From Croceivirga lutea (GTDB taxonomy: Bacteria; Bacteroidota; Bacteroidia; Flavobacteriales; Flavobacteriaceae): a stretch of DNA of 64,000 nt. Below are positions 9,481-62,139 of this stretch, in pieces. Numbering within the stretch: the stretch's first letter is position 1; each line of letters starts with the position of its first letter. Below the pieces are notes generated by a model. The model ran no database searches. It saw only the letters and a program-made list of their open reading frames with translations, and was not told the DNA's origin. The DNA lies in assembly GCF_014235875.1 (NCBI RefSeq), contig NZ_JACJUK010000008.1:62001-126000 (forward strand), written 5' to 3'. A program made the translations under genes and the position numbers.

Positions 9481-10175
9481 AGCAGACACTAACACTTTTA
9501 GCCATTCTATTTTTAGCTTTTTCTTGCGGAAAAGACACTGACTTTTCTGATAAAGTGCAAAGCACAATACCCGAACAGGTTCAATTAGTATTTCCAGAAG
9601 AAAATGAGGTGTGTACTACTGGTATAATTATAAGTGATACAGAAAGTGAGGTAGCGTTTGATTGGACTGATGCTACTAATACGAGTATTTATAGAGTTAC
9701 ACTTACTAATTTAAACAGTAGCCAACAAGACACTTTTGAAGCTACTGAAAGTAATCTCCCCATTAGATTATTAAGAGGAACTCCTTATAGCTGGAAGGTT
9801 ACAACCATATTAGAAAATTCAGAAGAAACTACAGATAGCGATACCGAATTCTTTTATAACGCTGGTGATGGTGTAACAAATTACATTCCGTTTCCCGCTA
9901 GTGAACCTTCTCCAGAAAATGGAGCTAGCTATTCTTCTGCTGTAACTGCAGTTAATTTTTCATGGGTAGGCAGCGACTTAGATAACGATATCATTAGCTA
10001 CGATTTTTACTTTGGTTTAACTATGGAACCAGAATTATTAGAAGCGGACCTTGAAAGTAACATTTTAAATAATGTAGTAGTAAATTCTGGAAACCGATAT
10101 TATTGGCAAGTGGTTACCAAAGATGAATTAGGAAACCAATCAACATCTGACCTCTTTTATTTTGATGTTAATTAA
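9477..10175 (+). CDS. Lipoprotein with two fibronectin-type-III-like domains
   Basis: The frame stays open further upstream inside the dehydrogenase gene, but the start at 9477 (ATGA overlap with the preceding stop) gives a clear SPII lipoprotein signal: MKQTLTLLAILFLAFSCGK. The mature part, about 215 residues, contains two beta-sandwich units with the fibronectin III look: VAFDWTDA ... YSWKVTT and VNFSWVGSDLDND ... YYWQVVTKDELG. No catalytic motif is visible. Overlap with the secreted dehydrogenase suggests the two proteins are made together and that this lipoprotein may anchor or assist it at the cell surface (inference). Its 3' end overlaps the convergent CusB-type gene by eight bases. Confidence 0.82.
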   Translation: MKQTLTLLAILFLAFSCGKDTDFSDKVQSTIPEQVQLVFPEENEVCTTGIIISDTESEVAFDWTDATNTSIYRVTLTNLNSSQQDTFEATESNLPIRLLRGTPYSWKVTTILENSEETTDSDTEFFYNAGDGVTNYIPFPASEPSPENGASYSSAVTAVNFSWVGSDLDNDIISYDFYFGLTMEPELLEADLESNILNNVVVNSGNRYYWQVVTKDELGNQSTSDLFYFDVN

Positions 10176-11880
10176 TCTTTTCTTGAACTGTACCGCACAT
10201 TAACATTTTATCACCAAAATACGGATTTCGTATTTCTTCACTTAAACTCAACCAAGTAGCACCTTTATTACCATCTGCCATTGGACAGAACTGAACGTAA
10301 ATAACTTCATTAAATCCTGAACTGTTCTTTACTACTTCAATAAAATTTTGTGAAAGTGGTTTAAACTCAGCTCGTAAAGCCTCCATAGATTTAAAGGAAT
10401 TTAAATTCATTATTGAAGTATTGAGCTTTTCAAATGCCAAACTTTTTGTATCAAAAGCGTTTTTATTGTTTTTAAATTCTTCCTGTAGTTTTAAAACCGC
10501 AGAAATAGATTTCTTTAAATCTGTTGCAACAAGCGCATTCTTCACTGCTAAATAAGCCTCTACAACATTCACAATTTTTTCATTAGTTGGCTCTTCTATT
10601 GATTTGTGATCACCCAAATCTTTTATGTGTTTGTGATGATTATGCTTTATTTTATCCTCTGAAAAATCAATAGACATCATTGACTTTTTACCATTTAACT
10701 GTGCGGCAGCATCTACTGTAAATGCACCTTCGAGAACTATTTCATCTCCTAATTGCAAACCAGACAAAACTTCATAAGAATTTTCAAAGGTGTTTCCTAA
10801 ATCCACCTCTACGAGTTCAAAAATAGCCTGGTCTTTATAAGGCTTTTTATAGACTACAGAGCGTTTACCTGTCCACAAAACCGAAGATTTGGGTACCGTT
10901 AAATTAGCAGTTTCAGTAGTTTCTTTTTGTACAAATCCATCAACAAACATACCTGGTTTAAGCTCACTGTTTCTATTAGTAAGAACAACTCGTAAAGACA
11001 CTACCCGTTTTTCATCTTTAAAAATAGGCTCGATAAAATCTATTTTGGCATCGAACTTTTTATTTCCTAAAGCTGGAATTTCTACAGTAATTTTTTCACC
11101 TACTTTCAAACTATTTAATTGTGATTCGTACACATCAAAAACTGCCCAAACAGTTCGTAAATCAGATGTTTTTAAAATAGGTGTTCCCAGTTCATAATAA
11201 TTTCCTTCTGCCGCTAAAACTTCGGTCACTGTACCAGTAACATCGGCATAGATAGGGAAATTAAAAATTGGTTCTTTAATTTTTAAAATAGAATCTATTT
11301 GCTCATCTGTAAGCTTCCACATACCTAAAGAGTTACGAGCAGACTCATATAACCTAGGAGGCACTTTGCTGTTTAAAGCTGTGGTTAAAAATCGGTCTTG
11401 AGCTAAATACAATTCAGGAGAGTAAATGAGTCCTATTTTTTGACCTTTTCGAATGCGTTTACCAATTGCATCTGCATAAAATTTATCAATTCTACCTTCA
11501 AAAAGCGTAGTTTGAATACCATCTGTTTCTTTGTTGGTGGTAATTTCTCCAGATAATTTTATAGTATTTGAATTCTGAAGGGAACTACCAACGGTAATGG
11601 TTTCAATATTAGCAAGCGCTAACGCATCTTCACCCATTTTAAATTGGTTGGCGTTCAAAGTAGATTCCATATTCATGTAGACCAAATCCATTCCGCAAAG
11701 TGGACAGGTACCTCCTTCTTGTCCGTCAACCTGAGGGTGCATGGAGCAAGTCCATTTACCTGATGTATTTGACACTTCATGATTGTGATGCGATTCTGAA
11801 TCTGAACCACCAAATATGAGATAACCCAGCAACAAACCCAAAATGCCAACAATTAACGGTATTCCAATTTTTTTTAGCAT
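10168..11880 (-). CDS. CusB-type RND efflux adaptor with heavy-metal-binding and DUF3347 domains
   Basis: 570-residue periplasmic adaptor of a heavy-metal RND pump (HlyD/CusB family). An N-terminal membrane anchor (GIPLIVGILGLLLGYLIFG) is followed by a His-rich stretch and a heavy-metal-binding domain at 43-66 with Cys45, MHP 47-49, Cys59, Cys62 and Met64. The core has the usual barrel-sandwich elements (GRIDKFYADAIGKRIRKGQK). A His-rich linker (KHNHHKHIKDLGDH) leads to a C-terminal DUF3347 domain containing CPMADGNKGATWLS and MLMCG. By family it hands Cu(I)/Ag(I) or similar ions to the RND pump. It lies four bases downstream of the pump gene in the same operon. Metal specificity is inferred, not shown. 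Confidence 0.92.
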   Translation of the reverse strand: MLKKIGIPLIVGILGLLLGYLIFGGSDSESHHNHEVSNTSGKWTCSMHPQVDGQEGGTCPLCGMDLVYMNMESTLNANQFKMGEDALALANIETITVGSSLQNSNTIKLSGEITTNKETDGIQTTLFEGRIDKFYADAIGKRIRKGQKIGLIYSPELYLAQDRFLTTALNSKVPPRLYESARNSLGMWKLTDEQIDSILKIKEPIFNFPIYADVTGTVTEVLAAEGNYYELGTPILKTSDLRTVWAVFDVYESQLNSLKVGEKITVEIPALGNKKFDAKIDFIEPIFKDEKRVVSLRVVLTNRNSELKPGMFVDGFVQKETTETANLTVPKSSVLWTGKRSVVYKKPYKDQAIFELVEVDLGNTFENSYEVLSGLQLGDEIVLEGAFTVDAAAQLNGKKSMMSIDFSEDKIKHNHHKHIKDLGDHKSIEEPTNEKIVNVVEAYLAVKNALVATDLKKSISAVLKLQEEFKNNKNAFDTKSLAFEKLNTSIMNLNSFKSMEALRAEFKPLSQNFIEVVKNSSGFNEVIYVQFCPMADGNKGATWLSLSEEIRNPYFGDKMLMCGTVQEKIN

Positions 11881-11884
11881 AAGC

Positions 11885-14800
11885 CTAAGCTTGTTTTGAA
11901 TTTTTTAAAGTTACTTCTTTCCACCAACAGTATATTAACGGTACAACAAACAAGGTTATTAGCGCCATTAGCATTCCTCCTAAAATAGGTATTGCCATGG
12001 GTAACATTATTTCTGCTCCCCTACCTCTAGAAATTAAAATAGGAAACAATGCCAATATGGTTGTTGCTGTTGTAATTAGACAAGGTCTAATTCGCTTTTT
12101 ACCAGCTTCAATAACCGCTTTTCGTATGTGTTCAGAGGTTGAAGTCTTATTTTTAGCAAAAGACTGATTTAAATAGGTAGCCATAACCACGCCATCATCT
12201 GTTGCAATACCAAACAAGGCAATAAACCCTACCCATACAGCTACACTTAAATTAATAGTCTTTATTTGAAATAGATTTCTAAGGTTAATTTCACCCAAAT
12301 TAATATTCATGAACCAATCCTGGTTGTAAAACCAGAGTAAAATAAATGCTCCGGAAAATGCGACAGCAACACCTGAAAAAACAATGAAAGTTACCGCCAC
12401 AGAACGAAACTGAAGAAAAAGAATTACTACGATTACCAATAAAACTAGAGGTATAACTAAGAGCATAGTTTTTTGCGCTCTCAAATGATTTTCATAATTA
12501 CCTGCAAATTCATAAGTAATTCCATTTGGAATTTGAAACTCTCCAGATTTAAGTCTTTTAGTCAATCTACTTTTTATTTTTTCAACCACCTTAACTTCAG
12601 CAACGGTACCCTTTTTATCAAATGTTAGATAGTTAACCAAAAAACCATCTTCACTTTTTATACTTTGAGGTCCTCTTTGATATTCTATTTCGACAAATTC
12701 AATTAACGGAATTGAAATTCCTTCTTGAGTATCAATATAAACGGACTTTAACTCTTCGGGAGAATTTCTTAGCTCTCTTGGGTATCTTACTCTTATGGCA
12801 TAGCGTTCTCTACCCTCAATAGTTTCATCAATTATTTTTCCACCAACAGCTACTTCTAAAGTTTCTTGAACCTCGGCTATAGTAAGGCCATACCTTGCTA
12901 TTTTATCTCTACTAATGTTAAAAAGTAAATAAGGCTTACCTGTTATACGTTCAGCAAAAACTGAAGCAGGATTAATCTCATCAATCTCTTTTAAGATTTT
13001 TTCTAGCTCCAAAGAAAAATCTTGTATTTTTTCTAAATCTTGCCCCTTTACCTTGATACCTAAGCTAGAACGCATACCCGTTTGTAGCATTACCAATCGG
13101 GTTTCAATGGGTTGTAACTTAGGAGAAGCTGTTACGCCAGGCAATTGAGTAACCTTACTAATTTCACTCCAGATATCGTCCTCTGTTTTAACATGAGGCC
13201 TCCAATTTCTATAATAAGCTCCTTTTTTATCTTTTATTAAAATTGAACTTTTAACTCCACTACCTGCAATAACAGTGTCTCCATTCTTAGTAATAAACCT
13301 ATTAGAATCAACAGATTTAAATTTTATGGGAGTCCCATTTACATCTTCAATGTACTCTGATTTAAAAGATATAAGATTTTCGTACATGGTTAAGGGAGCT
13401 GGATCTAGTGCTGAATTAACCCTCCCTGCTTTACCAACAACATAATCTATTTCTGGTAAAGACGCTACAGCCATGTCTAATTTTTTTAGAACTTGGTTAG
13501 TCTCTTCGATACCGGCATGGGGTAATGAAGTTGGCATGAGTAGATAATCACCTTCTTTTAATTTGGGCATAAATTCTTTATCTGTATTCCAAAAAATTAG
13601 GAATCCAACAAAAACTAGTAGTACGGGTATACTTAAGCTTATACTTTTATGAGCTAATACCCAAGAAAGGTTTTTTTCATAATTACGTTTAAAAAAGTAA
13701 ATGGGAACTAATACAAGCGCAATTAGAAGTACTACAACTAAAAAATTAAAAAAGAAATTTGAGGTGATACCCAAAGGCCGCCAATACAAACTTAAAAGCG
13801 AAACTGTAACTAATACAGTACCATAAATGGTAATAGTCTGCTTCTGATGTGAATCTATTCTTTTAAGTAGAAATAAGATTGATGCTAAAGCTGAAGGAAT
13901 TAAAGCAAGACATATTAGTGAAAACCAACTACCAATAATTCCTAAAATAAATAAGCAGCCAAAAACAAACAGTCTGATATTAGTTGTAAATGGCTTTTTA
14001 AAATGTTTAAAAACTAATGCTGCTATTGGAGGCAGTATAAACAGCGTTACAAATAATGACGCTGCTAAAGCAAAAGTTTTAGTTATTGCCAATGGAGCAA
14101 ATAACTTACCCTCTGCCCCACTTAACATAAAAACCGGAATAAAACTTACAATAGTAGTAAGACCAGCAGTTAAAATAGCTCCCGAAACTTCATTTACTGC
14201 TACTTTAATGGTTTTCAAATAGGCTACCTCTAAAGAATCTTCTAAATTTCGAATAATATTCTCCGTAAGAATTATACCCATATCAACAATAGTTCCAATA
14301 GCTATGGCTATACCTGCTAGAGAAACAATATTAGCATCAACATTGAATAGCTTCATGCCAATGAAAACAAGTAAAACAGATAAAGGCATTAAACTAGAGA
14401 CTAATAAACTTGTTTTTAGATTTCTTAATAAGAGTAATATGACGATTATGCCAATTAATATTTCTAGCCAAAGTGCTTTTTTAAGTGTCCCTAAAGTTTC
14501 CTCTATAAGCTCTCCCCTGTCATAGAACGGTACAATAGTTAATTGGGTTTCTGTACCATCTGCCAAAATCTTTTTTGGCATGCCAAGTTGAATCTCTTTA
14601 ATTTTTTTATGAATACCCGCAACAACATTCATGGGGTTTTCACCATACCTTGCGGTGACCACCCCCCCGGTGACTTCTGCACCACCTTTATCTAAAATAC
14701 CTCTACGTTCCGCTGGTCCTAGGCTAACTTGAGCTACATCTTTTATTCTTATGGGTGTATAGTCTTCAGCGTAAATAGCAGCGTTTTCTATATCTGCTAT

Positions 14801-15571
14801 AGATTTAACATACCCCAAACCACGAACAAAATATTCAGCTCTATTGATTTCAATAGTTTGGGCTCCAATTTCTTTATTAGAAGATTTTACGGCTCTAATA
14901 ACTTGTGATAAACTCACTTTATATTGACGCATCTTTTCAGGGTCAACGTCTATTTGATATTCTTTTACATGACCGCCAACTGATGCAACTTCTGCAACTC
15001 CGTCAGCAGCAGCTAAAGCATTCTTTACAAAAAAATCTTGGATGCTTCTGGTCTCTTGTAAACTCCACCCCCCGGTAATCTTTCCATTCTTATCTCTGCC
15101 TTCTAGAGTGTACCAAAATAGTTGACCTAAAGATGTAGCATCAGGACCTAATTTGGGTTGCACACCTGCTGGTAATAAATCTTTAGGCAAAGCACTTAAC
15201 TTTTCTAAAATTCGGGTTCTACTCCAGTAATAATCTACGTCATCATCGAATATGACATAAACGCTTGAAACGCCAAACATAGAATTACTTCGTACAGACT
15301 TAACACCCGTAATACCTAATAAATTTGTAGTTAAAGGATAGGTGATTTGGTCTTCTATCTCTTGTGGAGACTGCCCATTCCATTCTGTATAAATAATTTG
15401 TTGGTTTTCTCCAATGTCAGGAATAGCATCTACGCTAATGGCATTTTTGGGTAAAAATTTAAATCCAAAGTCAAAGGGTGAGGTAAGTAATCCAAAAAGT
15501 AGTATTACAATAATGGTTATGTAAACCAAAATTCTATAGTGTACCAAAAAATGTATTGCCCGGTTAAGCAT
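11885..15571 (-). CDS. CusA/CzcA-type heavy-metal RND efflux pump
   Basis: 1228-residue inner-membrane RND transporter that exports metal ions using the proton gradient. The start (MLNRAIHFLVHYRILVYI), the porter segment DAIPDIGENQQIIYTEWNGQ, the membrane segment with GTIVDMGIILTEN and the late GIATDDGVVMATYL helix are those of the HME-RND family. About residues 530-630 contain roughly four additional hydrophobic segments between the usual transmembrane helices 6 and 7, which explains the length above the roughly 1050 residues of E. coli CusA. It is the first gene of a two-gene operon with the adaptor. No TolC/CusC gene and no metal sensor gene is present nearby, so both must be elsewhere. 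Confidence 0.93.
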   Translation of the reverse strand: MLNRAIHFLVHYRILVYITIIVILLFGLLTSPFDFGFKFLPKNAISVDAIPDIGENQQIIYTEWNGQSPQEIEDQITYPLTTNLLGITGVKSVRSNSMFGVSSVYVIFDDDVDYYWSRTRILEKLSALPKDLLPAGVQPKLGPDATSLGQLFWYTLEGRDKNGKITGGWSLQETRSIQDFFVKNALAAADGVAEVASVGGHVKEYQIDVDPEKMRQYKVSLSQVIRAVKSSNKEIGAQTIEINRAEYFVRGLGYVKSIADIENAAIYAEDYTPIRIKDVAQVSLGPAERRGILDKGGAEVTGGVVTARYGENPMNVVAGIHKKIKEIQLGMPKKILADGTETQLTIVPFYDRGELIEETLGTLKKALWLEILIGIIVILLLLRNLKTSLLVSSLMPLSVLLVFIGMKLFNVDANIVSLAGIAIAIGTIVDMGIILTENIIRNLEDSLEVAYLKTIKVAVNEVSGAILTAGLTTIVSFIPVFMLSGAEGKLFAPLAITKTFALAASLFVTLFILPPIAALVFKHFKKPFTTNIRLFVFGCLFILGIIGSWFSLICLALIPSALASILFLLKRIDSHQKQTITIYGTVLVTVSLLSLYWRPLGITSNFFFNFLVVVLLIALVLVPIYFFKRNYEKNLSWVLAHKSISLSIPVLLVFVGFLIFWNTDKEFMPKLKEGDYLLMPTSLPHAGIEETNQVLKKLDMAVASLPEIDYVVGKAGRVNSALDPAPLTMYENLISFKSEYIEDVNGTPIKFKSVDSNRFITKNGDTVIAGSGVKSSILIKDKKGAYYRNWRPHVKTEDDIWSEISKVTQLPGVTASPKLQPIETRLVMLQTGMRSSLGIKVKGQDLEKIQDFSLELEKILKEIDEINPASVFAERITGKPYLLFNISRDKIARYGLTIAEVQETLEVAVGGKIIDETIEGRERYAIRVRYPRELRNSPEELKSVYIDTQEGISIPLIEFVEIEYQRGPQSIKSEDGFLVNYLTFDKKGTVAEVKVVEKIKSRLTKRLKSGEFQIPNGITYEFAGNYENHLRAQKTMLLVIPLVLLVIVVILFLQFRSVAVTFIVFSGVAVAFSGAFILLWFYNQDWFMNINLGEINLRNLFQIKTINLSVAVWVGFIALFGIATDDGVVMATYLNQSFAKNKTSTSEHIRKAVIEAGKKRIRPCLITTATTILALFPILISRGRGAEIMLPMAIPILGGMLMALITLFVVPLIYCWWKEVTLKNSKQA

Positions 15572-50954: not shown

Positions 50955-52658
50955 ATGAAACTATTTCCAGTATACATTTTATTGGCTTTGCTGTTAGGAT
51001 TTTGTAGTGAGTCAAAGAAAAAAGACTTAGAAAAGAAAAACGGCACCACTGAAAAGCCTAACATAGTTTTTATAATGTCTGATGACCATGCCTACCAAGC
51101 CATCTCTGCCTATAATAATAACTTAATAGAGACACCTAATATTGACCGTATTGCTAAAATGGGTATGCTATTTACCAATGCTAGTGTAACCAATTCAATT
51201 TGTGCGCCCTCTAGGGCAACTATACTTACAGGCAAACACTCTCATTTAAACGGTAAAATTGATAATGTCTCACCTTTTGATACTACCAATGTAACTTTTC
51301 CTCAATTACTACAGAAAGCGGGTTACCAAACAGCCATGTTTGGTAAACTACATTTTGGTAATAACCCAAAGGGTTTTGACCAATTTAAAATTCTACCGGG
51401 ACAAGGTTCTTATTATAATCCCGACTTCATCACTAAAAATGAAGGAGAAATTCAAGTTCAGGGTTACGTAACTGATATTATTACAGACATGACGCTAGAG
51501 TGGTTGAAGAAAGAACGAGTTGAAGAAAAACCATTTATGTTAATGTATTTGCATAAAGCGCCTCACCGTTCTTGGTATATGGCAGAAAGGCATATGCAAG
51601 AATTTACAAATAAAACCTTTGAGGAACCAGAAACGTTGTTTGATGATTATGAAGGTATGCCCGCAGCCAAAGTTGCTGAAATGAGAATTAATGGTGATAT
51701 GGGTTGGGCGGCAGACTCTAAATTGTATCCAGATGTAATGGATAAATTAGGTTTAAAAGAACAAATAGGATTTGACAAAAGAAGATTTAGCAATAGTTAT
51801 GAAAGATTAGATTCCACGCAAAAAGCCAATTTTGATGCCGCATATAGACCTGTAGCAGAAAAGTTTATAAATGACTTTTCTAACATGACTGAAAAAGAAA
51901 TTGCACAATGGCGATATCAACGATACATGCAAGATTATTTGGGTACCATAAAGTCTGTTGATGAAAATGTAGGTCGCGTATTGGATTATCTTGAGGCCAA
52001 TAATCTTATAGAAAATACAATTATTGTGTATACATCTGACCAAGGTTTCTATTTGGGTGAACATGGTTGGTTTGACAAGCGCTTTGTATATGATGAAAGT
52101 TTTAAAACCCCCTTATTAGTTTCTTGGCCAAATAGAATTCAGCCAGGTAGTGTTTCTGATGAATTAGTTCAAAATTTAGATTTTGCGCAAACATTTCTTG
52201 AAGCTGCTAAAGTTGAACAACCAGAAGATATGCAAGGCAAAAGCATGCTACCAGTACTTACCAATGATTTGGAAAATTGGAATAGAGAAGCGGTATACTA
52301 TCATTATTATGAGCATCCTTCAGAGCACAATGTAAATAGACATTATGCAGTGGTTACTAAAGACTACAAACTAATTCATTACTATTTTGATTTGGATTAT
52401 TGGGAATTGATAGACCGAAAAAAAGACCCCTTAGAACAACATAATTATTACGATGACCCTGCCTATGCTACTGTAAAAGAAGCACTACATCAGAAACTAA
52501 ACCAATTGCGCGAAGAATACGGAGATAGTAACGCCTTAAGTCAACAATATATAGATGATTTTATGCCATTAGCCAAAGAAGGTAAAGTATGGGGGGTAGA
52601 AGACCACATTTTAGAACCTATTGTTGAAAAATGGGAAAACATGAAACAAAAACAATAG
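50955..52658 (+). CDS. Type I sulfatase (formylglycine-dependent)
   Basis: 567 residues. The signal MKLFPVYILLALLLGFCSES looks like a lipoprotein signal with Cys17. The sulfatase domain starts KPNIVFIMSDDH (metal-binding Asp pair) and has the modification motif CAPSR at 83-87, with Cys83 to be converted to formylglycine, followed by ATILTGKH. Further sulfatase motifs are GYQTAMFGKLHFG, HKAPHRSW and YTSDQGFYLGEHGWFDKRF. It hydrolyses sulfate esters, probably of an algal polysaccharide (inference). The next gene, 31 bases on, encodes a formylglycine-generating enzyme. Confidence 0.93.
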   Translation: MKLFPVYILLALLLGFCSESKKKDLEKKNGTTEKPNIVFIMSDDHAYQAISAYNNNLIETPNIDRIAKMGMLFTNASVTNSICAPSRATILTGKHSHLNGKIDNVSPFDTTNVTFPQLLQKAGYQTAMFGKLHFGNNPKGFDQFKILPGQGSYYNPDFITKNEGEIQVQGYVTDIITDMTLEWLKKERVEEKPFMLMYLHKAPHRSWYMAERHMQEFTNKTFEEPETLFDDYEGMPAAKVAEMRINGDMGWAADSKLYPDVMDKLGLKEQIGFDKRRFSNSYERLDSTQKANFDAAYRPVAEKFINDFSNMTEKEIAQWRYQRYMQDYLGTIKSVDENVGRVLDYLEANNLIENTIIVYTSDQGFYLGEHGWFDKRFVYDESFKTPLLVSWPNRIQPGSVSDELVQNLDFAQTFLEAAKVEQPEDMQGKSMLPVLTNDLENWNREAVYYHYYEHPSEHNVNRHYAVVTKDYKLIHYYFDLDYWELIDRKKDPLEQHNYYDDPAYATVKEALHQKLNQLREEYGDSNALSQQYIDDFMPLAKEGKVWGVEDHILEPIVEKWENMKQKQ

Positions 52659-52689: not shown

Positions 52690-53805
52690 ATGAGTAAATC
52701 ACTTTGCTATTTACTAGCTATTTTTTTAGGCGTACTTATAGTATCCTGTAAAAACTCAACAGCTCAAAAAGAACAAACACAAAAATTAAAAAAGGAAAAA
52801 GTAGAACCTGTTTTAGAATTAAAAAGCAAACAACCAAAGGAAACTATTCCAGAAAACATGGTTTGGATACCCGGTGGAACTTTTATGCAAGGAGCTACTT
52901 CCACAGATAAAATGGCAATGGCCCATGAAAAACCGTCACATAAGGTGACTGTTGACGGTTTTTTTATGGACAAACATGAAGTTACCAATGCTCAGTTCTC
53001 AAAATTTATTGAAGCCACAGGTTATGTTACCGTAGCAGAACGCAAAATAGATTGGGAAGAAATGAAGAATCAGTTGCCAGCTGGTACACCAAAACCTCAT
53101 GATAGCATTTTACAGCCTGGCTCATTGGTTTTCAAGAAAACAAAATCTAGCGTTCCAAATTTATATGATTACTCTCAATGGTGGGAATGGAAAATAGGCG
53201 CTAACTGGAAACATCCGAACGGACCCACTTCTAACATAGAAGGTAAAGAAAATTATCCTGTAGTTCATATTGCTTTTGAAGATGCAATGGCATATTGTAA
53301 ATGGGCCAACAGAAGACTTCCAACTGAAGCCGAATGGGAATTTGCTGCTCGAGGAGGAAAAGCAGAAGCAATTTTCTTTTGGGGTGATGAAACAAATCAA
53401 CTGAGATATTACGCTAACACTTGGGAAGGTGAGTTTCCTGTAAATAATAGTAAAGCTGACGGATATGAACGTAGGGCACCAGTGATGCAATACCCAAAAA
53501 ATGATTTTGGCCTTTTTGATATAGCGGGTAATGTATGGGAATGGACAAGTGATTGGTATAATGCTAATTATTATAGTGAAATTGCAAATCAGCATTCTAA
53601 CAATCCATCTGGAGCAAAGGAACCTTTCACACCTAATAATCCGTATGCAAAAGAGCGTGTTATCAAAGGAGGCTCTTTTTTATGCAGTGCCAGTTATTGT
53701 GCCAGTTATCGCATTTCTGCTCGTATGGCTACTAGTCCAGATTCAGGTATGGAGCATTTGGGATTTAGAACAGTTGCCACAGAAGAAATGCTGGTAAATA
53801 AATAA
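52690..53805 (+). CDS. Formylglycine-generating enzyme, lipoprotein form
   Basis: 371 residues. An SPII signal (LLAIFLGVLIVSCKN) precedes an FGE-sulfatase/SUMF1 domain: WIPGGTFMQGA, FFMDKHEVTNAQFSKFIEAT, RRLPTEAEWEFAARGG, DIAGNVWEWTSDWY. The C-terminal GGSFLCSASYCASYRISARM contains Cys332 and Cys337 with the C-x4-C spacing of the catalytic pair of human FGE (Cys336/341), so it is expected to be active and not a GldJ/GldK-type structural paralogue. It probably matures the adjacent sulfatase. Its exported location is notable because maturation is usually cytosolic in bacteria. Confidence 0.9.
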   Translation: MSKSLCYLLAIFLGVLIVSCKNSTAQKEQTQKLKKEKVEPVLELKSKQPKETIPENMVWIPGGTFMQGATSTDKMAMAHEKPSHKVTVDGFFMDKHEVTNAQFSKFIEATGYVTVAERKIDWEEMKNQLPAGTPKPHDSILQPGSLVFKKTKSSVPNLYDYSQWWEWKIGANWKHPNGPTSNIEGKENYPVVHIAFEDAMAYCKWANRRLPTEAEWEFAARGGKAEAIFFWGDETNQLRYYANTWEGEFPVNNSKADGYERRAPVMQYPKNDFGLFDIAGNVWEWTSDWYNANYYSEIANQHSNNPSGAKEPFTPNNPYAKERVIKGGSFLCSASYCASYRISARMATSPDSGMEHLGFRTVATEEMLVNK

Positions 53806-53850: not shown

Positions 53851-55470
53851 CTATTTTCCATTAAAGAATAGCATAATACCTGCGACAATAACAAGAATAA
53901 TGATGGAAAGAACCACATCAAAAATACCGTAACTTCCTTTATTTTTTGATTTAGCTTCATCAGTTAACGTACCAAATGTTAAGTTGATAACTTTCTCCTT
54001 GGAGGGTGCTGCGGTTACTAAGCTAATGCCTACAGCCAAAATTACACATCCTAAGAAAAACCAAGCACCAAAAGTTAGATAGTTCATATCAGCCATCTTA
54101 TAGAAAAAGCCATCTACATTCATAGATTCCTTTGCTAATTCTAATCCTAATCTTAAGAAACCTACAAACAACCCAAGCACTAAAGTTACTAGGGCTCCAA
54201 TACCATTAATTCGTTTATAAAATATTCCTAATAAGAAAACCGCTGCAATTGGAGGAGCCACATACGTTTGAACTTTTTGTAAATATTCATATAAAACACC
54301 TGAAATATTTGCCATAATAGGTATCCAAATAATACCAATTATCACAGTAATTATTGTTGCTATTTGACCTGTGCGAACAAGTTTTTTTTCTGGTGTATTT
54401 GGTCTGAGTTTTTTATAAATGTCAACCGTAAATAAGGTAGAGCAAGAATTAAATACTGAAGCTAGTGAACTCATTAAAGCTGCCAATAAACCAGCAGCTA
54501 CAAGACCTCGAAGACCAGAAGGCAATAAATTACTCATTAAAACTGGGAAAGCTTCATCCGGTGAATTCCAATGTAGCTCACCTTTCATTTTAAGGGTTAA
54601 TGCAATAATACCCGGAATCAGAAACAAGAATACCGGTAGTAATTTTAATAACGCTCCAAAAATAGTTCCTCTTCTACCCTCTTTAATGTTTTTTGCCGTA
54701 AGCGCACGTTGTACAATATATTGGTCAGTACACCAGTACCAAATACCTACAATAGTACTAGAAATCAATAAAGACGGCCATGGAAAATCGGGGTCGGTAG
54801 CGGGCCTCCACATATTTAAATATTCTGGACCTACAGTAGCCTTTATTTCTGACCAGCCACCTACGTGATTATAACCTATTATTGTTAGCGCAGCTGCTCC
54901 AATTACAAGTACTATTGCTTGAAGTGTTTCAGTATAAACAACAGCTCGCATACCGCCAAGAACCGTATACAAACCTGTTAATACCACCGTGGCAATTGCT
55001 CCAGTCCAAAAATCGATTCCTAATAATGCTGAAACCACTACACCACCAGCGTAAATAGTTACCGAAATTTTAGTTAACACATAAGCGATTATCGAAAACA
55101 CGGACAACACCCAACGCGAACGTGCATCAAAACGTTTCTCTAAAAACTCCGGCATGGTGAATACTCCACTTCTAGCATAGAATGGCAAGAACACCCAGCC
55201 TAACATTAGTACCAACCACGCATGGATTTCGTAAATGAGCATGGGTAATTTATCACCCGCACCGGCTCCAGCTAATCCAACCACATGTTCAGAACCAATA
55301 TTAGAGGCAAAAATTGACGCACCCACCACAAACCATCCAACATTACGGCCAGCTAAAAAATAGTCTTCGGTATTGCTTTTTTTCTTTTTGATAATCCATA
55401 CTGCGATACCAACTAGTACGGTAAAATAGACTGCAATAAATATCCAGTCTAAAGAGTCTAAGGTTTTCAT
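53851..55470 (-). CDS. Sodium/solute symporter (SSS family), probable sugar importer
   Basis: 539 residues with about 14 membrane helices. The start SLDWIFIAVYFTVLVGIAVW, the motif NTEDYFLAGRNVGWFVVGAS and GSEHVVGLAGAGA are typical of SGLT-like SSS transporters. Several Bacteroidetes members carry monosaccharides with sodium. It is the last gene of the arabinose operon, 36 bases after the mutarotase gene, and the only sugar permease in the window. L-arabinose uptake is the natural assignment by context; specificity is unproven. Confidence 0.9.
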   Translation of the reverse strand: MKTLDSLDWIFIAVYFTVLVGIAVWIIKKKKSNTEDYFLAGRNVGWFVVGASIFASNIGSEHVVGLAGAGAGDKLPMLIYEIHAWLVLMLGWVFLPFYARSGVFTMPEFLEKRFDARSRWVLSVFSIIAYVLTKISVTIYAGGVVVSALLGIDFWTGAIATVVLTGLYTVLGGMRAVVYTETLQAIVLVIGAAALTIIGYNHVGGWSEIKATVGPEYLNMWRPATDPDFPWPSLLISSTIVGIWYWCTDQYIVQRALTAKNIKEGRRGTIFGALLKLLPVFLFLIPGIIALTLKMKGELHWNSPDEAFPVLMSNLLPSGLRGLVAAGLLAALMSSLASVFNSCSTLFTVDIYKKLRPNTPEKKLVRTGQIATIITVIIGIIWIPIMANISGVLYEYLQKVQTYVAPPIAAVFLLGIFYKRINGIGALVTLVLGLFVGFLRLGLELAKESMNVDGFFYKMADMNYLTFGAWFFLGCVILAVGISLVTAAPSKEKVINLTFGTLTDEAKSKNKGSYGIFDVVLSIIILVIVAGIMLFFNGK

Positions 55471-55506
55471 TTTTGGTTGGTTGTTTGGTTAAATTCAGTT
55501 TTTAAT

Positions 55507-56685
55507 TTATTTAGTTGAAAATTTAAAAATAGTTGTTGTGGAATAAATTTCTCCTGGATTAAGTCTTGTGGAAGGAAAATTTGGTTGATTTGGACTATCT
55601 GGAAAATGTTGAGTTTCTAAACAAAATCCAGACCTTTTATCATACCCCCCTTCATTGCCAGGTATGGGCAAAGAACCATCCAAAAAGTTACCGGTGTAAA
55701 ATTGTATTCCAGGTTCAGTTGTAGATACTTCTAAAAATCTGCCACTTACAGGATCATAAGCTGTTGCAACTTTACGTAATGTTCCGTTTTCACCATTTAA
55801 TACCCAGCAATGGTCATAACCCCCGCCTAATTTTAATTGTTTGTTATCATCATCAATATTTTGGCCTATGGCTTTTTGGTTTGTAAAGTCAAAAGGTGAT
55901 TCAGTAACACTTCTAAATTCTCCTGTAGGAATTAACCCTTCATCAACAGGTAAAAATGTATTGGCATTTATCTGAACTTCTTGATTGTGAACATTCTTTG
56001 TAAAATCGCTAGAAAGATTAAAATAGGCGTGGTGTGTAAGATTTACAACGGTAGCTTTATCTGTTTCTGCTTTATAGTCAACAGCAAGTTCATTTTGGTT
56101 ATTCAAAGAATAAATTACAGTAACTTGTAAATTTCCGGGATACCCTTCTTCACCATCTTTGCTAGTATAATTTAACTTTAGTTTTGACTCAGTTTCTCCT
56201 TCAATAGGTTCAATTTCCCATATAACTTTATCGAAACCAATAGTACCACCATGTAAATGATTTTCACCATTATTTGTAACAAGTGTATACGCTTTATTGT
56301 CTAAACTGAATTTACCTTTTGCTATACGGTTGCCATACCTACCAACTAAAGCTCCAAAAAATGGATTTTCTATAACGTAATCATCAATTGTATCGAACCC
56401 TAAAGTAACATTAGCAATGATTCCATTTTTATTGGGTACTCTTAAAGAAACTATTCGACCACCATAGCTAATAATCGTAACCTCCATACCATTAGCATTG
56501 GTAAGGGTGTACGCGTCAATCTGGGTTCCATCTTTCAATGTTCCAAATACAGATTTTTCAATTTTCATGGATTTGCTTGCTTTGGTTTCTAATATAGATT
56601 GCTCTTTGTTTTTTTGCTTACAACTTAAAAAAAACACTAAGGCAAAAATCGTAAAACCTATAAGTTTAGTTTGTTTTAATTTCAT
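55507..56685 (-). CDS. Aldose 1-epimerase (galactose mutarotase), lipoprotein
   Basis: About 392 residues. The ATG at 56685 gives a lipoprotein signal (MKLKQTKLIGFTIFALVFF, lipobox LSCK) and avoids overlap with araA; a further in-frame ATG is at 56739. Mutarotase motifs are YGGRIVSLRVPNKNG, NHLHGGTIGFDKVIW, the catalytic His in LTHHAYFNLS and the catalytic Glu in GFCLETQHFPDSPNQP. It interconverts alpha and beta anomers. The signal places it in the periplasm, ahead of the SSS symporter that follows in the operon. Confidence 0.92.
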   Translation of the reverse strand: MKLKQTKLIGFTIFALVFFLSCKQKNKEQSILETKASKSMKIEKSVFGTLKDGTQIDAYTLTNANGMEVTIISYGGRIVSLRVPNKNGIIANVTLGFDTIDDYVIENPFFGALVGRYGNRIAKGKFSLDNKAYTLVTNNGENHLHGGTIGFDKVIWEIEPIEGETESKLKLNYTSKDGEEGYPGNLQVTVIYSLNNQNELAVDYKAETDKATVVNLTHHAYFNLSSDFTKNVHNQEVQINANTFLPVDEGLIPTGEFRSVTESPFDFTNQKAIGQNIDDDNKQLKLGGGYDHCWVLNGENGTLRKVATAYDPVSGRFLEVSTTEPGIQFYTGNFLDGSLPIPGNEGGYDKRSGFCLETQHFPDSPNQPNFPSTRLNPGEIYSTTTIFKFSTK

Positions 56686-56704
56686 TTTATTCAGTTTACT
56701 ATTA

Positions 56705-58210
56705 TTAACCACGTAAAAAACCACTGTAATAAGCTTCATTAGCTCGAATTAAGTTTTTAAAATTTCGGATTTTAGTATCAGAGTCAATCACCAAAAGTTC
56801 AATTCCGAAGCTATCAGCAAAATCTTCTAAAAACTCTGACGTTAGTGCCTTTGTATACACTGTGTGGTGGGCCCCTCCTGCCAAAATCCAAGCCGTAGTT
56901 GCAATTTCTAGATTAGGTTTTGGATTCCAGAGCACTCGTGCAACAGGTAATTTAGGTAAATCTGCCAAAGGTTCAACTGCTTCAACTTCATTCACAATTA
57001 ATCGAAACCTATTGCCCAAATCAACCAAAGATGCATTTAAACCAGAACCGGCAGGAGAATTAAAAACCAAGCGAACCGGGTCTTCCTTACCCCCTATACT
57101 TAAAGGATGTACTTCACAAGAGGGTATTGTATCGGCAATAGTTGGACAAATTTCTAACATATGTGAACCTAATACCAAATCTTTTACTGGATTAAAATGA
57201 TAGGTATAGTCCTCCATAAAAGAAGTTCCACCCTCCAACCCTGTGGCCATAACCTTCATTACCCTGGTTAGTGCCGCTGTTTTCCAATCACCTTCCGCAC
57301 CAAAACCATAGCCATCTGCCATTAACCGTTGCACGGCCAAACCTGGTAATTGCTTAAGGTCTCCTAGATTTTCAAAAGTATCGGTAAAAGCTTTAAAACC
57401 ACCTTCTTCTAAAAACCTACGTAGGGCCAACTCAATCTTAGCGGCTTCAATAAGTGATTCTCTCTTGGCTCCATCTTTTGCCAATTCTGAAGCTAAGCGA
57501 TATTCTTGCTCATAAGTTGCCAAAAGATTATTAATTTCCTCTTGAGATAAGCTCTCTATCTTTGATGTAATATCAGACGCGTTAAAACCATTAACAGACA
57601 TTCCAAAAGTTATTTGGGCACTTACCTTATTACCCTCTGTTACCGCAACTTCTCGCATATTGTCACCAAAGCGAGCTACTTTAAGTTGCTGCATTTCATC
57701 TACACCAAGGGCAACACGGGACCAAAGTCCTATTTTTTGCTGAACACTTTCTGCTTTCCAATGGCCTACTATAACTTTTCGATTAATACGCATTCGTGAC
57801 ATCATATGGCCAAATTCTCGGTCGCCATGTGCCGATTGGTTCAAATTCATAAAATCCATATCAATATGCTCCCAAGGAATTTCTGCATTGAATTGGGTAT
57901 GAAAATGACAAAGAGGTTTATGCAGAATTCTTAAACCATTTATCCACATTTTGGCAGGAGAAAAGGTGTGCATCCACATAATAATACCAATACAATTTTT
58001 TGTAGCATTAGCTTGTATGCACAAATTGGTTATTTCTAATGGTGTTTTTACAATAGGCTTAAAAACAATATTCAAAGGAATTACCTCTGAATTATGTAGT
58101 GCCTTTGCGATGGTTTCTGAATTTTGGGCTACTTGCTTTAAGGTCTCCTGACCATATAAATGTTGGCTACCGGTTACGAACCAAATTTCCTTATTTGAAA
58201 TTTTAATCAT
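56705..58210 (-). CDS. araA: L-arabinose isomerase
   Basis: 501-residue cytoplasmic enzyme converting L-arabinose to L-ribulose. The start [20 protein letters not shown], the [19 protein letters not shown] segment, [11 protein letters not shown] (with a metal-binding Glu and His region) and GGAHHTVYT are diagnostic of AraA. Length equals that of the E. coli enzyme within one residue. It sits six bases after araD in a GH51-araB-araD-araA-galM-SSS operon. Confidence 0.97.
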
Positions 58211-58216
58211 AGTTTT

Positions 58217-58915
58217 TTATTGACCATAATAAGCGTTTTTACCATGTTTACGGTCGTAGTGTTTTTTTATAAGTAAGTTTTTTAATCTTGGTGCGTCAGG
58301 GTTAATTTGAATAGTGAGATAAGCCATCTGCGCTACAGTTTCTAACACTTTAGAATTATAAACTGCCTTTGCAGCATTATTGCCCCATGTGAACGGGCCG
58401 TGGTTACCTATCAACACCATTTCTACCTCTTGGTAATCTAGACCTCGTTCTGTAAAGCAATCTAAAATTTGAACTCCTGTATTGTGTTCATAATTACCAA
58501 CAATCAAATCGTCGTCCATAGGTGATGTACAAGGAATATCTTTTGTTAAATGGTCGGCATGTGTTGTCCCAAAAATGGGAATATCTTTTTGTGCTTGTGC
58601 CCAAGAAACTGAATACATTGCGTGGGTATGAGCTATACCACCAATATGTTCCCAGTTCTTATAAAGGTAACAGTGGGTTTTTGTATCTGATGATGGTTTT
58701 AGAGCTCCTTCTACCACCATATTATCAAAATCTATTACCACCATATCATCTGGTCTTAAATTTGTATACGGCACACCGCTAGGTTTAATGGCAAATACAC
58801 CCTTATCGTGGTCTACCGTACTAACATTACCAAAAGTGTAAATAACCAAGCCCAGTGTATGCAACTGCAAATTAGCTTCGAAACATTCTTGTTTCAATAA
58901 TTTATACGATGACAT
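58217..58915 (-). CDS. araD: L-ribulose-5-phosphate 4-epimerase
   Basis: 232-residue class II aldolase-fold, zinc-dependent enzyme producing D-xylulose-5-phosphate. It shows TFGNVSTVDHDKGVFAIKPS, the zinc ligands in AHTHAMYSVSWAQ, GTTHADHL, and LIGNHGPFTWG. Length matches AraD/UlaF. Its start overlaps the araB stop by 14 bases, and araA begins six bases after its end, giving tight co-expression. Confidence 0.96.
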   Translation of the reverse strand: MSSYKLLKQECFEANLQLHTLGLVIYTFGNVSTVDHDKGVFAIKPSGVPYTNLRPDDMVVIDFDNMVVEGALKPSSDTKTHCYLYKNWEHIGGIAHTHAMYSVSWAQAQKDIPIFGTTHADHLTKDIPCTSPMDDDLIVGNYEHNTGVQILDCFTERGLDYQEVEMVLIGNHGPFTWGNNAAKAVYNSKVLETVAQMAYLTIQINPDAPRLKNLLIKKHYDRKHGKNAYYGQ

Positions 58916-60593
58916 CTTTACTTATTTTTTTAGTTAATTGTTCCACGAAAAATCCGAGTTTTTTGTAAGCTTCAATATGTTGTTTTAACTCGGTCACTGT
59001 GTCTGTTTGAGGAAAATATTCGGCCTCAAAATCACTCCCCATTACTTTACTGGCATTAATAACCGTATCATAAACACCAGCGGCTGTTGCTGCATAAATA
59101 GCAGCGCCCAGTGCAGGAGTTTGATTGGATTTTACCACTTTTATAGGTTTGTTTAGTACGTTGGCTAAAGTCTGCATAATAAAAGGAGATTTACGTGCTA
59201 CACCTCCAATACCAATAACGTTGTGGATTTGAACACCTTCTTCCTCAAAACGATTTACAATCATTTTAGAGCCAAAACAAATGGCATTGACCAAAGCCTT
59301 AAACAAATGTGGTGCCTTTGTACCTAAAGAAATACCTGTAAACGCGCTTTTTAACTCTTGATTTGTATCTGGTGTTCGTCTTCCATTTACCCAGTCTAAG
59401 GCTACAGGAATTGCATCAGAAAGCGAAATTCTCTCAGCATGCTGCGCCAAAGTTTGAATAAAGTTTTTATCAATTTCTTGCTGTAGTTCTTCTTTTTGAG
59501 TTGCAGTTAATATGTCAGATTTCATGACTAAATTATCTATGGGCCAAGACAATACTGTTTTAAACCACGCCAAAACATCACCAAAAGCAGATTGCCCAGC
59601 TTCTAATCCTATCATACCTGGTATAACTGAACCATCTACTTGACCACAAATGCCTTTAACCGTATTGTTACCAATAACACTATATGGCGAAACCATAATA
59701 TCACATGTTGAAGTACCCATTACGCGTACCAGAGAGTTTTTATCCACTTTTGCTCCAATGGCTCCAGCATGGGCATCAAAGGTTCCCACAGCAATAACCG
59801 TATTGGTGGTTAGGCCTAATTTTTGTGCCCATTGTGCATTTAGGTAACCTGCTATTTGGTCTGAGGTAAACGTATCTACATATAAGTTATCTTTTAGTTC
59901 TGCTAAATAGGAATCTAACTTTGAAAGAAAACTTTTAGAAGGTAAACCACCCCATGATTTATGCCACATGGCTTTATGACCTGCAGCACAACGACTACGT
60001 TTGAAAGCTGTTAAATCTTTTTGGTCGGCCAATAAGTAAGTCATATAATCACAATTTTCCATCCAAGTAAAAGCTGCATTCTTAACTACCTCATCTTCTC
60101 GTATTACATGTAAAATTTTTGCCCAAAACCACTCAGAAGAATAGATTCCCCCTTCGTATTTTGTAAAGTTCTCTCCTCCCCAATTTCTTGCCAAGTCATT
60201 AATTTCATTAGCTTCTTTAACAGCGGTATGGTCTTTCCAAAGTATAATCATGGCATTAGGGTTTTCTTCAAAACCTTTAGTCAACGCCAAAGCTTCACCA
60301 TTTTCGGTGATAGCCATTGGTGAGGAGCCCGTAGTATCAATACAAATACCCAATACCTGCTCTGCAGATATTTTACTTTTTTGAATTACCGAAACAATCG
60401 TGGTTTGTAATCCTTCTATATGGTCTAAGGGATGCTGCCTAAATTGATTTTTTGTAGCAATACAAAATTTTTGGGCCTTCCATCTAGGATAACAAAATAC
60501 TTCAGAAGCCGATTCTGTACCATCGGAAGTACTTATTAATACGGCTCTAACAGAGTCTGTACCAAAATCGAGTCCTATGACATATTTGTTCAT
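58902..60593 (-). CDS. araB: Ribulokinase
   Basis: 563-residue FGGY-family kinase phosphorylating L-ribulose with ATP. N-terminal YVIGLDFGTDSVRAVLIS, GICIDTTGSSPMAI, VMGTSTCDIMVSP and the FGGY C-terminal GIGGVARKSPFIMQTLANV are AraB features. Length fits bacterial ribulokinases. It is the second gene of the operon, ten bases after the GH51 gene. Confidence 0.97.
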   Translation of the reverse strand: MNKYVIGLDFGTDSVRAVLISTSDGTESASEVFCYPRWKAQKFCIATKNQFRQHPLDHIEGLQTTIVSVIQKSKISAEQVLGICIDTTGSSPMAITENGEALALTKGFEENPNAMIILWKDHTAVKEANEINDLARNWGGENFTKYEGGIYSSEWFWAKILHVIREDEVVKNAAFTWMENCDYMTYLLADQKDLTAFKRSRCAAGHKAMWHKSWGGLPSKSFLSKLDSYLAELKDNLYVDTFTSDQIAGYLNAQWAQKLGLTTNTVIAVGTFDAHAGAIGAKVDKNSLVRVMGTSTCDIMVSPYSVIGNNTVKGICGQVDGSVIPGMIGLEAGQSAFGDVLAWFKTVLSWPIDNLVMKSDILTATQKEELQQEIDKNFIQTLAQHAERISLSDAIPVALDWVNGRRTPDTNQELKSAFTGISLGTKAPHLFKALVNAICFGSKMIVNRFEEEGVQIHNVIGIGGVARKSPFIMQTLANVLNKPIKVVKSNQTPALGAAIYAATAAGVYDTVINASKVMGSDFEAEYFPQTDTVTELKQHIEAYKKLGFFVEQLTKKISKDVIV

Positions 60594-60603
60594 TAAACTA
60601 GAT

Positions 60604-62139
60604 TTAGTTTAGTTCAAGAACAATTAGCGAATGCTTTGGTATTTCAACTAGCATTATTCCACTTTTTATTTTAAAGTCTTTGAATTCTTTTGGTTTTACC
60701 TTTTCTGGATTTTCGAATGAATTGTAATCTTGTAATTTTTCAGATGTTAAAATTGAAGCGGAAGGTTTTTTTACCTGAAACCTACTTAAATCAATTTCAA
60801 CAATATGCGATTTTTCTGGGTCAATATTTACTAACGAAATATGATAGCCTCCATTTTTATCTTTAGAAGCAGAAACTGAAATTACTGGTAGTCCCCTATA
60901 TTTGGTATTCTCAACAATTGTGGTGGGTAGCAACTTAGCGTCTTGATGCACTTTATACATGTGCATAACATGATAGGTTGGCGTTTTAATCATTTTTTCT
61001 TCATCAGTCAAAATCACCGCTTGAAGTACATTTACCATTTGCGCCAAATTCGCCATTTTAACCCTACGTGCATGATTGTTGAACGTATTTAAAACCGTAC
61101 CAGCGATCATTACATCTCTAATGGTATTTTGCTGGTACAATACTCCATTTTTAACTTCTGGTTCTGCATCATACCAACCGCCCCATTCATCTACAAACAA
61201 ATCAACCTTTCCTTCAGGGTCATATTTATCCATAATAGCAATATGTTTGGTAACATATTCGTCCATGTTCAAAGCTTGCTTCATTGTTTTAAAGTAGATT
61301 TCTTCATCAAAATTTATCGATGGTCCTTTTGCATTCCAATCGAAAACAGCATAATCATGAAGTGCTACGGCTTCCATTAAATTGAAAGGAACATTTTTCA
61401 TCAAGGTTTCAGTCCAATTATAATCATCTTCAGAAGCGCCAGACGCAATTCTGTAAATACCGTCACCATTACCCCAATCTGTCATAAACGTGGCATATTG
61501 CCTATAAATGTTCGCGTAATATTCTGCGGTCATATTACCACCACAACCCCAAGTTTCATTGCCTACTCCCCAATACTTTACTTTCCAAGGTTTTTCTCTG
61601 CCATTTTCTCGACGCCAGTCAGCCATAGGGCTTATTCCATCATGCGTAGTGTATTGTATCCAATCTGCAAGTTCTTGAACCGTGCCACTACCTACATTTG
61701 CAGACAAATATGGTTCGGCTCCCAACAACTCACATAGATTTAAAAAGTTATGCGTTCCAAAACTGTTATCCTCTGTAGTACCTCCCCACCAACGGTTTAC
61801 TATGGTAGGCCGTTTTGATTGAGGTCCTACCCCATCTTTCCAATGGTAAGTGTCTGCAAAACATCCGCCTGGCCATCGTAGGTTAGGAATGTCCAATTCT
61901 TTTAAAGCAGCAATAATGTCGTTACGAACCCCTTCTGTATTGGGAATTATTTTGTTGTCTTCACCAACATAAAGGCCTTCATAAATACACCTGCCTAAAT
62001 GTTCTGCAAAGTGCCCATAAATATGTTTACTTATTTGCGGAGCATCTTCTGTTTTTTCAATTTTAATTTTTACCTGAGCACTTATACCTTGAAATATTAA
62101 AAGTTTTAAGCATAGTAATAATAATAGTTTCGAGTTCAT
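60604..62139 (-). CDS. Exported GH51 alpha-L-arabinofuranosidase
   Basis: 511 residues with a signal peptide (LLLLLCLKLLIFQGISAQ). GH51 signatures are IYGHFAEHLGRCIYEGLYVG, NLRWPGGCFADTYHW, the acid/base Glu in GVGNETWGCGG and the nucleophile Glu in DLFVDEWGGWYDAE. It releases terminal arabinofuranose from arabinan, arabinoxylan or arabinogalactan side chains. It is the first gene of the ara operon, divergent from the AraR-like regulator, so supply of arabinose outside the inner membrane is co-controlled with uptake and catabolism. Confidence 0.96.
   Translation of the reverse strand: MNSKLLLLLCLKLLIFQGISAQVKIKIEKTEDAPQISKHIYGHFAEHLGRCIYEGLYVGEDNKIIPNTEGVRNDIIAALKELDIPNLRWPGGCFADTYHWKDGVGPQSKRPTIVNRWWGGTTEDNSFGTHNFLNLCELLGAEPYLSANVGSGTVQELADWIQYTTHDGISPMADWRRENGREKPWKVKYWGVGNETWGCGGNMTAEYYANIYRQYATFMTDWGNGDGIYRIASGASEDDYNWTETLMKNVPFNLMEAVALHDYAVFDWNAKGPSINFDEEIYFKTMKQALNMDEYVTKHIAIMDKYDPEGKVDLFVDEWGGWYDAEPEVKNGVLYQQNTIRDVMIAGTVLNTFNNHARRVKMANLAQMVNVLQAVILTDEEKMIKTPTYHVMHMYKVHQDAKLLPTTIVENTKYRGLPVISVSASKDKNGGYHISLVNIDPEKSHIVEIDLSRFQVKKPSASILTSEKLQDYNSFENPEKVKPKEFKDFKIKSGIMLVEIPKHSLIVLELN

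Follow-up and report, generated by a model that had tools for sequence, protein, structure and literature searches.

Sulfatases are key to the turnover of marine polysaccharides, and those of the S1 type require a formylglycine residue. FGE, which makes this residue from a cysteine, has been stated to reside in the cytosol in prokaryotes (PMC4505483), and a study of PorK describes the Bacteroidota lipoproteins with an FGE fold as non-catalytic (PMC12421860). The locus described here lies in a stretch of 64,000 nucleotides of the Croceivirga lutea genome (the window), and it raises the question of whether a lipoprotein of this phylum can be a catalytic FGE that meets its sulfatases outside the cytosol. 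The relevant features are as follows.

50955..52658, forward strand: S1-type sulfatase of 567 residues with a signal sequence (PF00884, 188.4 bits; SGSH_C, 226.2 bits)
51201..51215, forward strand: modification motif C83-A-P-S-R, the presumed FGE substrate site (read from the sequence)
52690..53805, forward strand: FGE, a predicted lipoprotein of 371 residues (PF03781; top PDB matches are FGEs)
52690..52749, forward strand: predicted signal sequence with terminal lipobox IVSC (sequence; conservation of Cys20)
52747-52749, forward strand: codon of the predicted lipid-attachment residue Cys20 (alignments of 33 and 173 sequences)
52852..53778, forward strand: predicted FGE catalytic core, residues 55-363 (phmmer against human FGE; AlphaFold2 model)
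53668..53700, forward strand: GGSFLCSASYC, with Cys332 (53683-53685) and Cys337 (53698-53700) (alignment to human FGE)

Judged by its sequence and modelled fold, the protein is an FGE of the catalytic type. A Pfam search returned a single domain, PF03781, at 264.7 bits against a curated cut-off of 23.3; the core is 45% identical to that of human FGE, and the nearest solved structures are the human, T. curvata and S. coelicolor FGEs. The AlphaFold2 model (mean pLDDT 83.8) gave Z scores of 35-36 against these three; the scores were lower for the paralogue SUMF2 (31.7), for PorK (25.9) and for EgtB (about 22). The initial annotation had proposed that GGSFLCSASYC holds a cysteine pair spaced as in the human enzyme, and Cys332 and Cys337 indeed align with human Cys336 and Cys341. 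In the same way S329, Y336, W283 and R341 match human S333, Y340, W299 and R345, residues that we take to have a catalytic role. All six positions are 99-100% conserved in an alignment of human FGE with 173 Bacteroidota FGEs, the latter selected for possessing the Cys pair, and so the loss of copper- or cysteine-site residues that had been named as a check on the idea was not seen. The enzyme would be expected to convert cysteine to formylglycine by Cu(I)/O2-dependent chemistry.

Several other identities were tried and rejected. The EgtB, SenA and OvoA synthase models gave 99.7, 102.9 and 51.7 bits against curated cut-offs of 360, 420 and 400, respectively, and structural disulfides of the human type were dismissed on the ground that Cys203 has no partner cysteine. 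GldK (TIGR03525) scored 154.6 bits against a cut-off of 350 and GldJ (TIGR03524) 59.6 against 458.2, and both identities are also excluded by the Cys pair, which is absent from the genome's own GldJ and GldK. That these two lipoproteins, from the same phylum, have the FGE fold and are pair-less in C. lutea itself is what would speak for the protein being a similar structural lipoprotein without catalysis. We give this reading very little credence: the Cys pair, S329, Y336 and W283 are retained in 99-100% of relatives, the scores fall far under the GldK and GldJ cut-offs, and the gene is linked to sulfatases, with a same-strand sulfatase no more than 300 bp away at 13 of the 80 genus-spread loci against 0.17 expected. 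The separation of a catalytic-type FGE from GldJ and GldK, as first suggested for this locus, is thus borne out by its family scores, the residues of its active site and its modelled fold.

The N-terminus of the protein (MSKSLCYLLAIFLGVLIVSCKNS) begins MSKSLC and leads to a lipobox, I-V-S-C20, found by pattern match and followed by KN. It has the signal, lipobox and predicted lipid cysteine of a bacterial lipoprotein (SPII), in agreement with the earlier reading of LIVSCKN. The Cys20 column is conserved in 99% of the 173 related FGEs, the Cys pair being present in 100% of this set, which was picked for having it; in an alignment of 33 sequences Cys20 is as invariant as the catalytic pair, whereas the signal residues around it vary. 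Surface-exposed lipoproteins of Bacteroidota require an acidic export signal after the cysteine (PMC5080379). The residues from Cys20 onward, CKNSTAQK, do not form one, and among the related FGEs 11% are LES-like after the lipid cysteine and the mean net charge is +0.8. As surface-export signals are rare in these enzymes, the simplest prediction is an anchor that faces the periplasm; this orientation is likely, and the sequence does not distinguish between the inner and the outer membrane.

An FGE acting in the cytosol, either before export or by way of an internal start at Met57, with the signal serving turnover or a minor pool, would agree with the description of the prokaryotic enzyme as cytosolic (PMC4505483). 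Met57 is conserved in related FGEs and a start there would yield a cytosolic core, but its counterpart in human FGE, Met91, is not a start, and the lipid cysteine and a signal are retained in virtually all relatives even though the signal sequence varies. We therefore regard a cytosolic site of action as improbable.

The prospective substrate next to the FGE is as first annotated, a CAPSR sulfatase 31 bases upstream, with the codon for Cys83 at 51201. Its N-terminus (MKLFPVYILLALLLGFCSESKKK) is clearly a signal sequence; the lipoprotein-like character attributed to it holds less well, the lipobox being imperfect (GFC, with F at -1). Lipoprotein-like or type I signals are present on this sulfatase and, among the compared loci, on all six of the homologues nearest to it.

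The rest of the C. lutea genome, which is 99.95% complete, was covered by family and protein searches, on which the genome-wide statements rest. Four PF03781 proteins were found (the window FGE, GldK, GldJ and an EgtB-like protein), and the Cys pair is present only in the window FGE. No protein of the genome scored above the cut-off of the anSME model (TIGR03942), the sole match, at 21.9 bits, being MoaA-like. The initial annotation had named a separate cytosolic FGE or an anSME as a finding that would count against it, and the genome yielded neither a second Cys-pair FGE nor an anSME. It encodes 12 Cys-type sulfatases, 11 with C-x-[PA]-x-R and one with CSPSL, and all 12 have export signals, lipoprotein-like in 11 cases. 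The CSPSL sequence stands in place of CxPxR at the modification site of sulfatase L014 (G000:C17:103926-104852, own genome); another PF00884 protein (L017) has membrane spans at its N-terminus and no such modification motif. From these maturase and signal searches the window FGE emerges as the only recognisable maturase and its candidate substrates are all exported, and it probably serves all 12 exported Cys-type sulfatases, beyond its operon neighbour. In Bacteroides, the cytosolic anSME matures exported sulfatases; exported substrates alone thus do not demand an exported enzyme.

The association of FGE with sulfatases extends well beyond this locus. FGE occurred in 134 of the 194 genomes that had at least two sulfatase matches, in 7 of 105 with fewer and in 0 of 50 with none, when matches were counted among the best seven per genome (Fisher p 1e-27, uncorrected for phylogeny). 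A sulfatase lay within 4 kb of FGE at 28 of the 80 genus-spread loci, where 5.0 were expected from density. Across all 150 distinct loci the motif could be read in 81 neighbouring sulfatases, and 78 of these were Cys-type. The sulfatases that adjoin FGEs span different subfamilies, which argues for a general maturase and against inherited synteny as the sole cause. A dedicated sulfatase-FGE pair was rejected: of the 27 upstream neighbours that lie no more than 100 bp from FGE and match the window sulfatase by BLAST, only six were at least 45% identical to it, the window's own included. The periplasmic maturation pair proposed at the outset consequently stands as a catalytic-type FGE with export and lipid signals beside an exported Cys-type sulfatase; it does not stand as a special pair, since a lipoprotein FGE is the normal form in Bacteroidota, the subfamily of the adjacent sulfatase varies, and the substrate range is probably the whole set of 12. 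Catalysis in the family gains support from the flavobacterium Formosa agariphila, whose FGE was co-expressed in E. coli for production of the organism's own sulfatases (PMC8511951); a relative from a Formosa MAG has a lipoprotein-type FGE (L284).

With regard to gene order, in the Maribacter/Arenibacter/Cellulophaga branch (L054, L057-L060, L063, L067, L069, L072, L075, L085, L086 and others) FGE often has downstream of it, on the same strand, a galactokinase (40 of the 150 loci) and a thioredoxin reductase (47 of 150); this order may reflect synteny or point to a source of reductant. In the window itself, inspection by eye placed an arabinose-use cluster at 53851-62139 on the reverse strand, with a sodium-solute symporter, a mutarotase-like lipoprotein, likely AraA, AraD and AraB, and a likely arabinofuranosidase. 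A CusA/CusB-like metal efflux pair, also recognised by eye, lies at 10168-15571 on the reverse strand, about 37 kb from FGE and with no evident link to it.

A further possibility is that most of the sulfatases' maturation is carried out by another maturase belonging to a third system, and that the exported catalytic FGE has an auxiliary part or acts on some of the sulfatases only. A full-length FGE like that of the window was missing from 32 of 120 sulfatase-rich genomes. As the initial FGE count had scored at most six candidates per genome, sulfatase-rich genomes without an FGE were scanned again with the Pfam PF03781 model, and in 17 of the 32, all Flavobacteriaceae and spread over 15 genera (G143, G211, G015, G182, G126, G274, G116, G013, G020, G022, G094, G103, G117, G132, G138, G226 and G233) there were only two PF03781 matches per genome, of GldK/GldJ size, and no anSME was found. 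The sulfatases sampled from FGE- and anSME-negative genomes were Cys-type, and a third maturation system has been proposed for E. coli (Benjdia 2007, as cited in PMC6315715). Sulfatase-rich relatives apparently without FGE and anSME suggest that the family probably has a further maturation route, which might also act in C. lutea. Against a subordinate role, the strong co-occurrence and adjacency of FGE and sulfatases suggest that FGE is the main maturase where it is present, and we consider such a role unlikely. This FGE is the only recognisable maturase in the genome, and its status as sole maturase is unproven given these relatives. As a separate observation, an FGE-family lipoprotein of about 300 residues without the Cys pair (GGSFMFDQALE) occurs at L178 (4992-5909), L179 (4860-5765) and L180 (5001-5900), in the sulfatase-rich genomes G153, G203 and G002, where it adjoins a lipoprotein bearing the haem-like motif CKECH.

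How general the lipoprotein form is can be judged from the 173 distinct Cys-pair FGEs, which were gathered from family, phylum and named-genome loci and whose export signals were called by a rule-based scan. The N-terminus was of lipoprotein type in 167 (97%), with a canonical lipobox in 105 and a relaxed one in 62, these being non-canonical and many having Q at -1. The remaining six comprise three with membrane or type I signals (L129, L208 and L211), two that look lipoprotein-like by eye (L121 and L282) and one that ends at a contig edge (L230), and none of the 173 was convincingly cytosolic by scan and eye. The same scan gave lipoprotein calls for 17% of 876 neighbouring ORFs, many of which were sulfatases. 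At the family level, 145 of 299 genomes had a match like the window FGE (best six candidates scored per genome), and an anSME above the cut-off was found in 0 of 299. Outside Bacteroidota, no signal was seen on the plasmid FGEs of rhizobia, Azospirillum, Paracoccus, Deinococcus and Halobaculum, and the apparent signal of a Methylobacterium plasmid FGE was gone when the annotated start was used. Type I or membrane signals were present on plasmid FGEs of Caballeronia, Cupriavidus, two cyanobacteria and Skermanella (L295, L297, L299, L302 and L307), so that an exported FGE is not unique to Bacteroidota. Eight cytosolic FGEs share one side of a tree branch with support of 100/98, in a tree in which several rows were shortened by trimming and which was used solely for the separation of the cytosolic clade. 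Among the FGEs compared, the lipid anchor as a rule was seen only in Bacteroidota.

Taken together, these comparisons lead us to favour, with a probability of about 0.7, an FGE of the catalytic copper type that leaves the cytosol through Sec, receives its lipid at Cys20 and stays anchored to the envelope, facing the periplasm, where it converts Sec-exported sulfatases. The globular core would sit on a linker of about 35 residues from the anchor, and the cysteine of C-x-[P/A]-x-R motifs would be turned into formylglycine during or soon after translocation, with the motif still unfolded. Like the eukaryotic ER enzyme, this copper enzyme would through its export be placed where more copper may be available. 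We also lean toward a phylum-wide version, in which Bacteroidota lack a cytosolic FGE and use periplasm-facing, lipid-anchored copper FGEs to make formylglycine in the envelope, in an O2-dependent manner, either as the sulfatases are exported by Sec or afterwards; such a system would be the bacterial counterpart of the ER pathway.

If Bacteroidota do make formylglycine in the periplasm, the usual account of prokaryotic FGE as a cytosolic enzyme (PMC4505483) does not hold for one major group, the reaction is predicted to depend on copper and oxygen in the periplasm, and the meeting of unfolded exported sulfatases with their maturase is explained. The production of such sulfatases and of aldehyde tags would change as well, and the sulfatase-rich genera without FGE or anSME offer a practical entry to the missing third maturation system. 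A search of the open literature, outside which most subscription journals lie, for periplasmic, exported, lipoprotein or secreted FGE returned nothing bacterial, only human secreted FGE; the C. lutea FGE is a known enzyme in an apparently new location.

Among known systems, anSME likewise makes formylglycine in sulfatases but is a cytosolic radical-SAM enzyme with a fold unrelated to that of FGE. GldK/PorK and GldJ are, like the C. lutea protein, FGE-fold lipoproteins of Bacteroidota; they lack the Cys pair, have large insertions and are structural components in T9SS and gliding (PMC12421860), whereas the C. lutea FGE keeps the pair. The FGEs of S. coelicolor (2q17, 6muj) and T. curvata (6s07) share fold and catalytic pair with it and are treated as cytosolic, whereas the C. 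lutea enzyme has an export signal and a predicted lipid cysteine. Human FGE/SUMF1 (1y1e, 8aru, 5ssz) shares the fold (Z 36), 45% core identity, the Cys pair and the active-site Ser, Tyr, Trp and Arg. The human enzyme is soluble in the ER, with a retention extension of its own and structural-disulfide partner cysteines that are absent from C. lutea FGE, for which a bacterial lipid anchor is predicted instead; it nevertheless acts outside the cytosol on exported sulfatases, as is predicted for the C. lutea enzyme.
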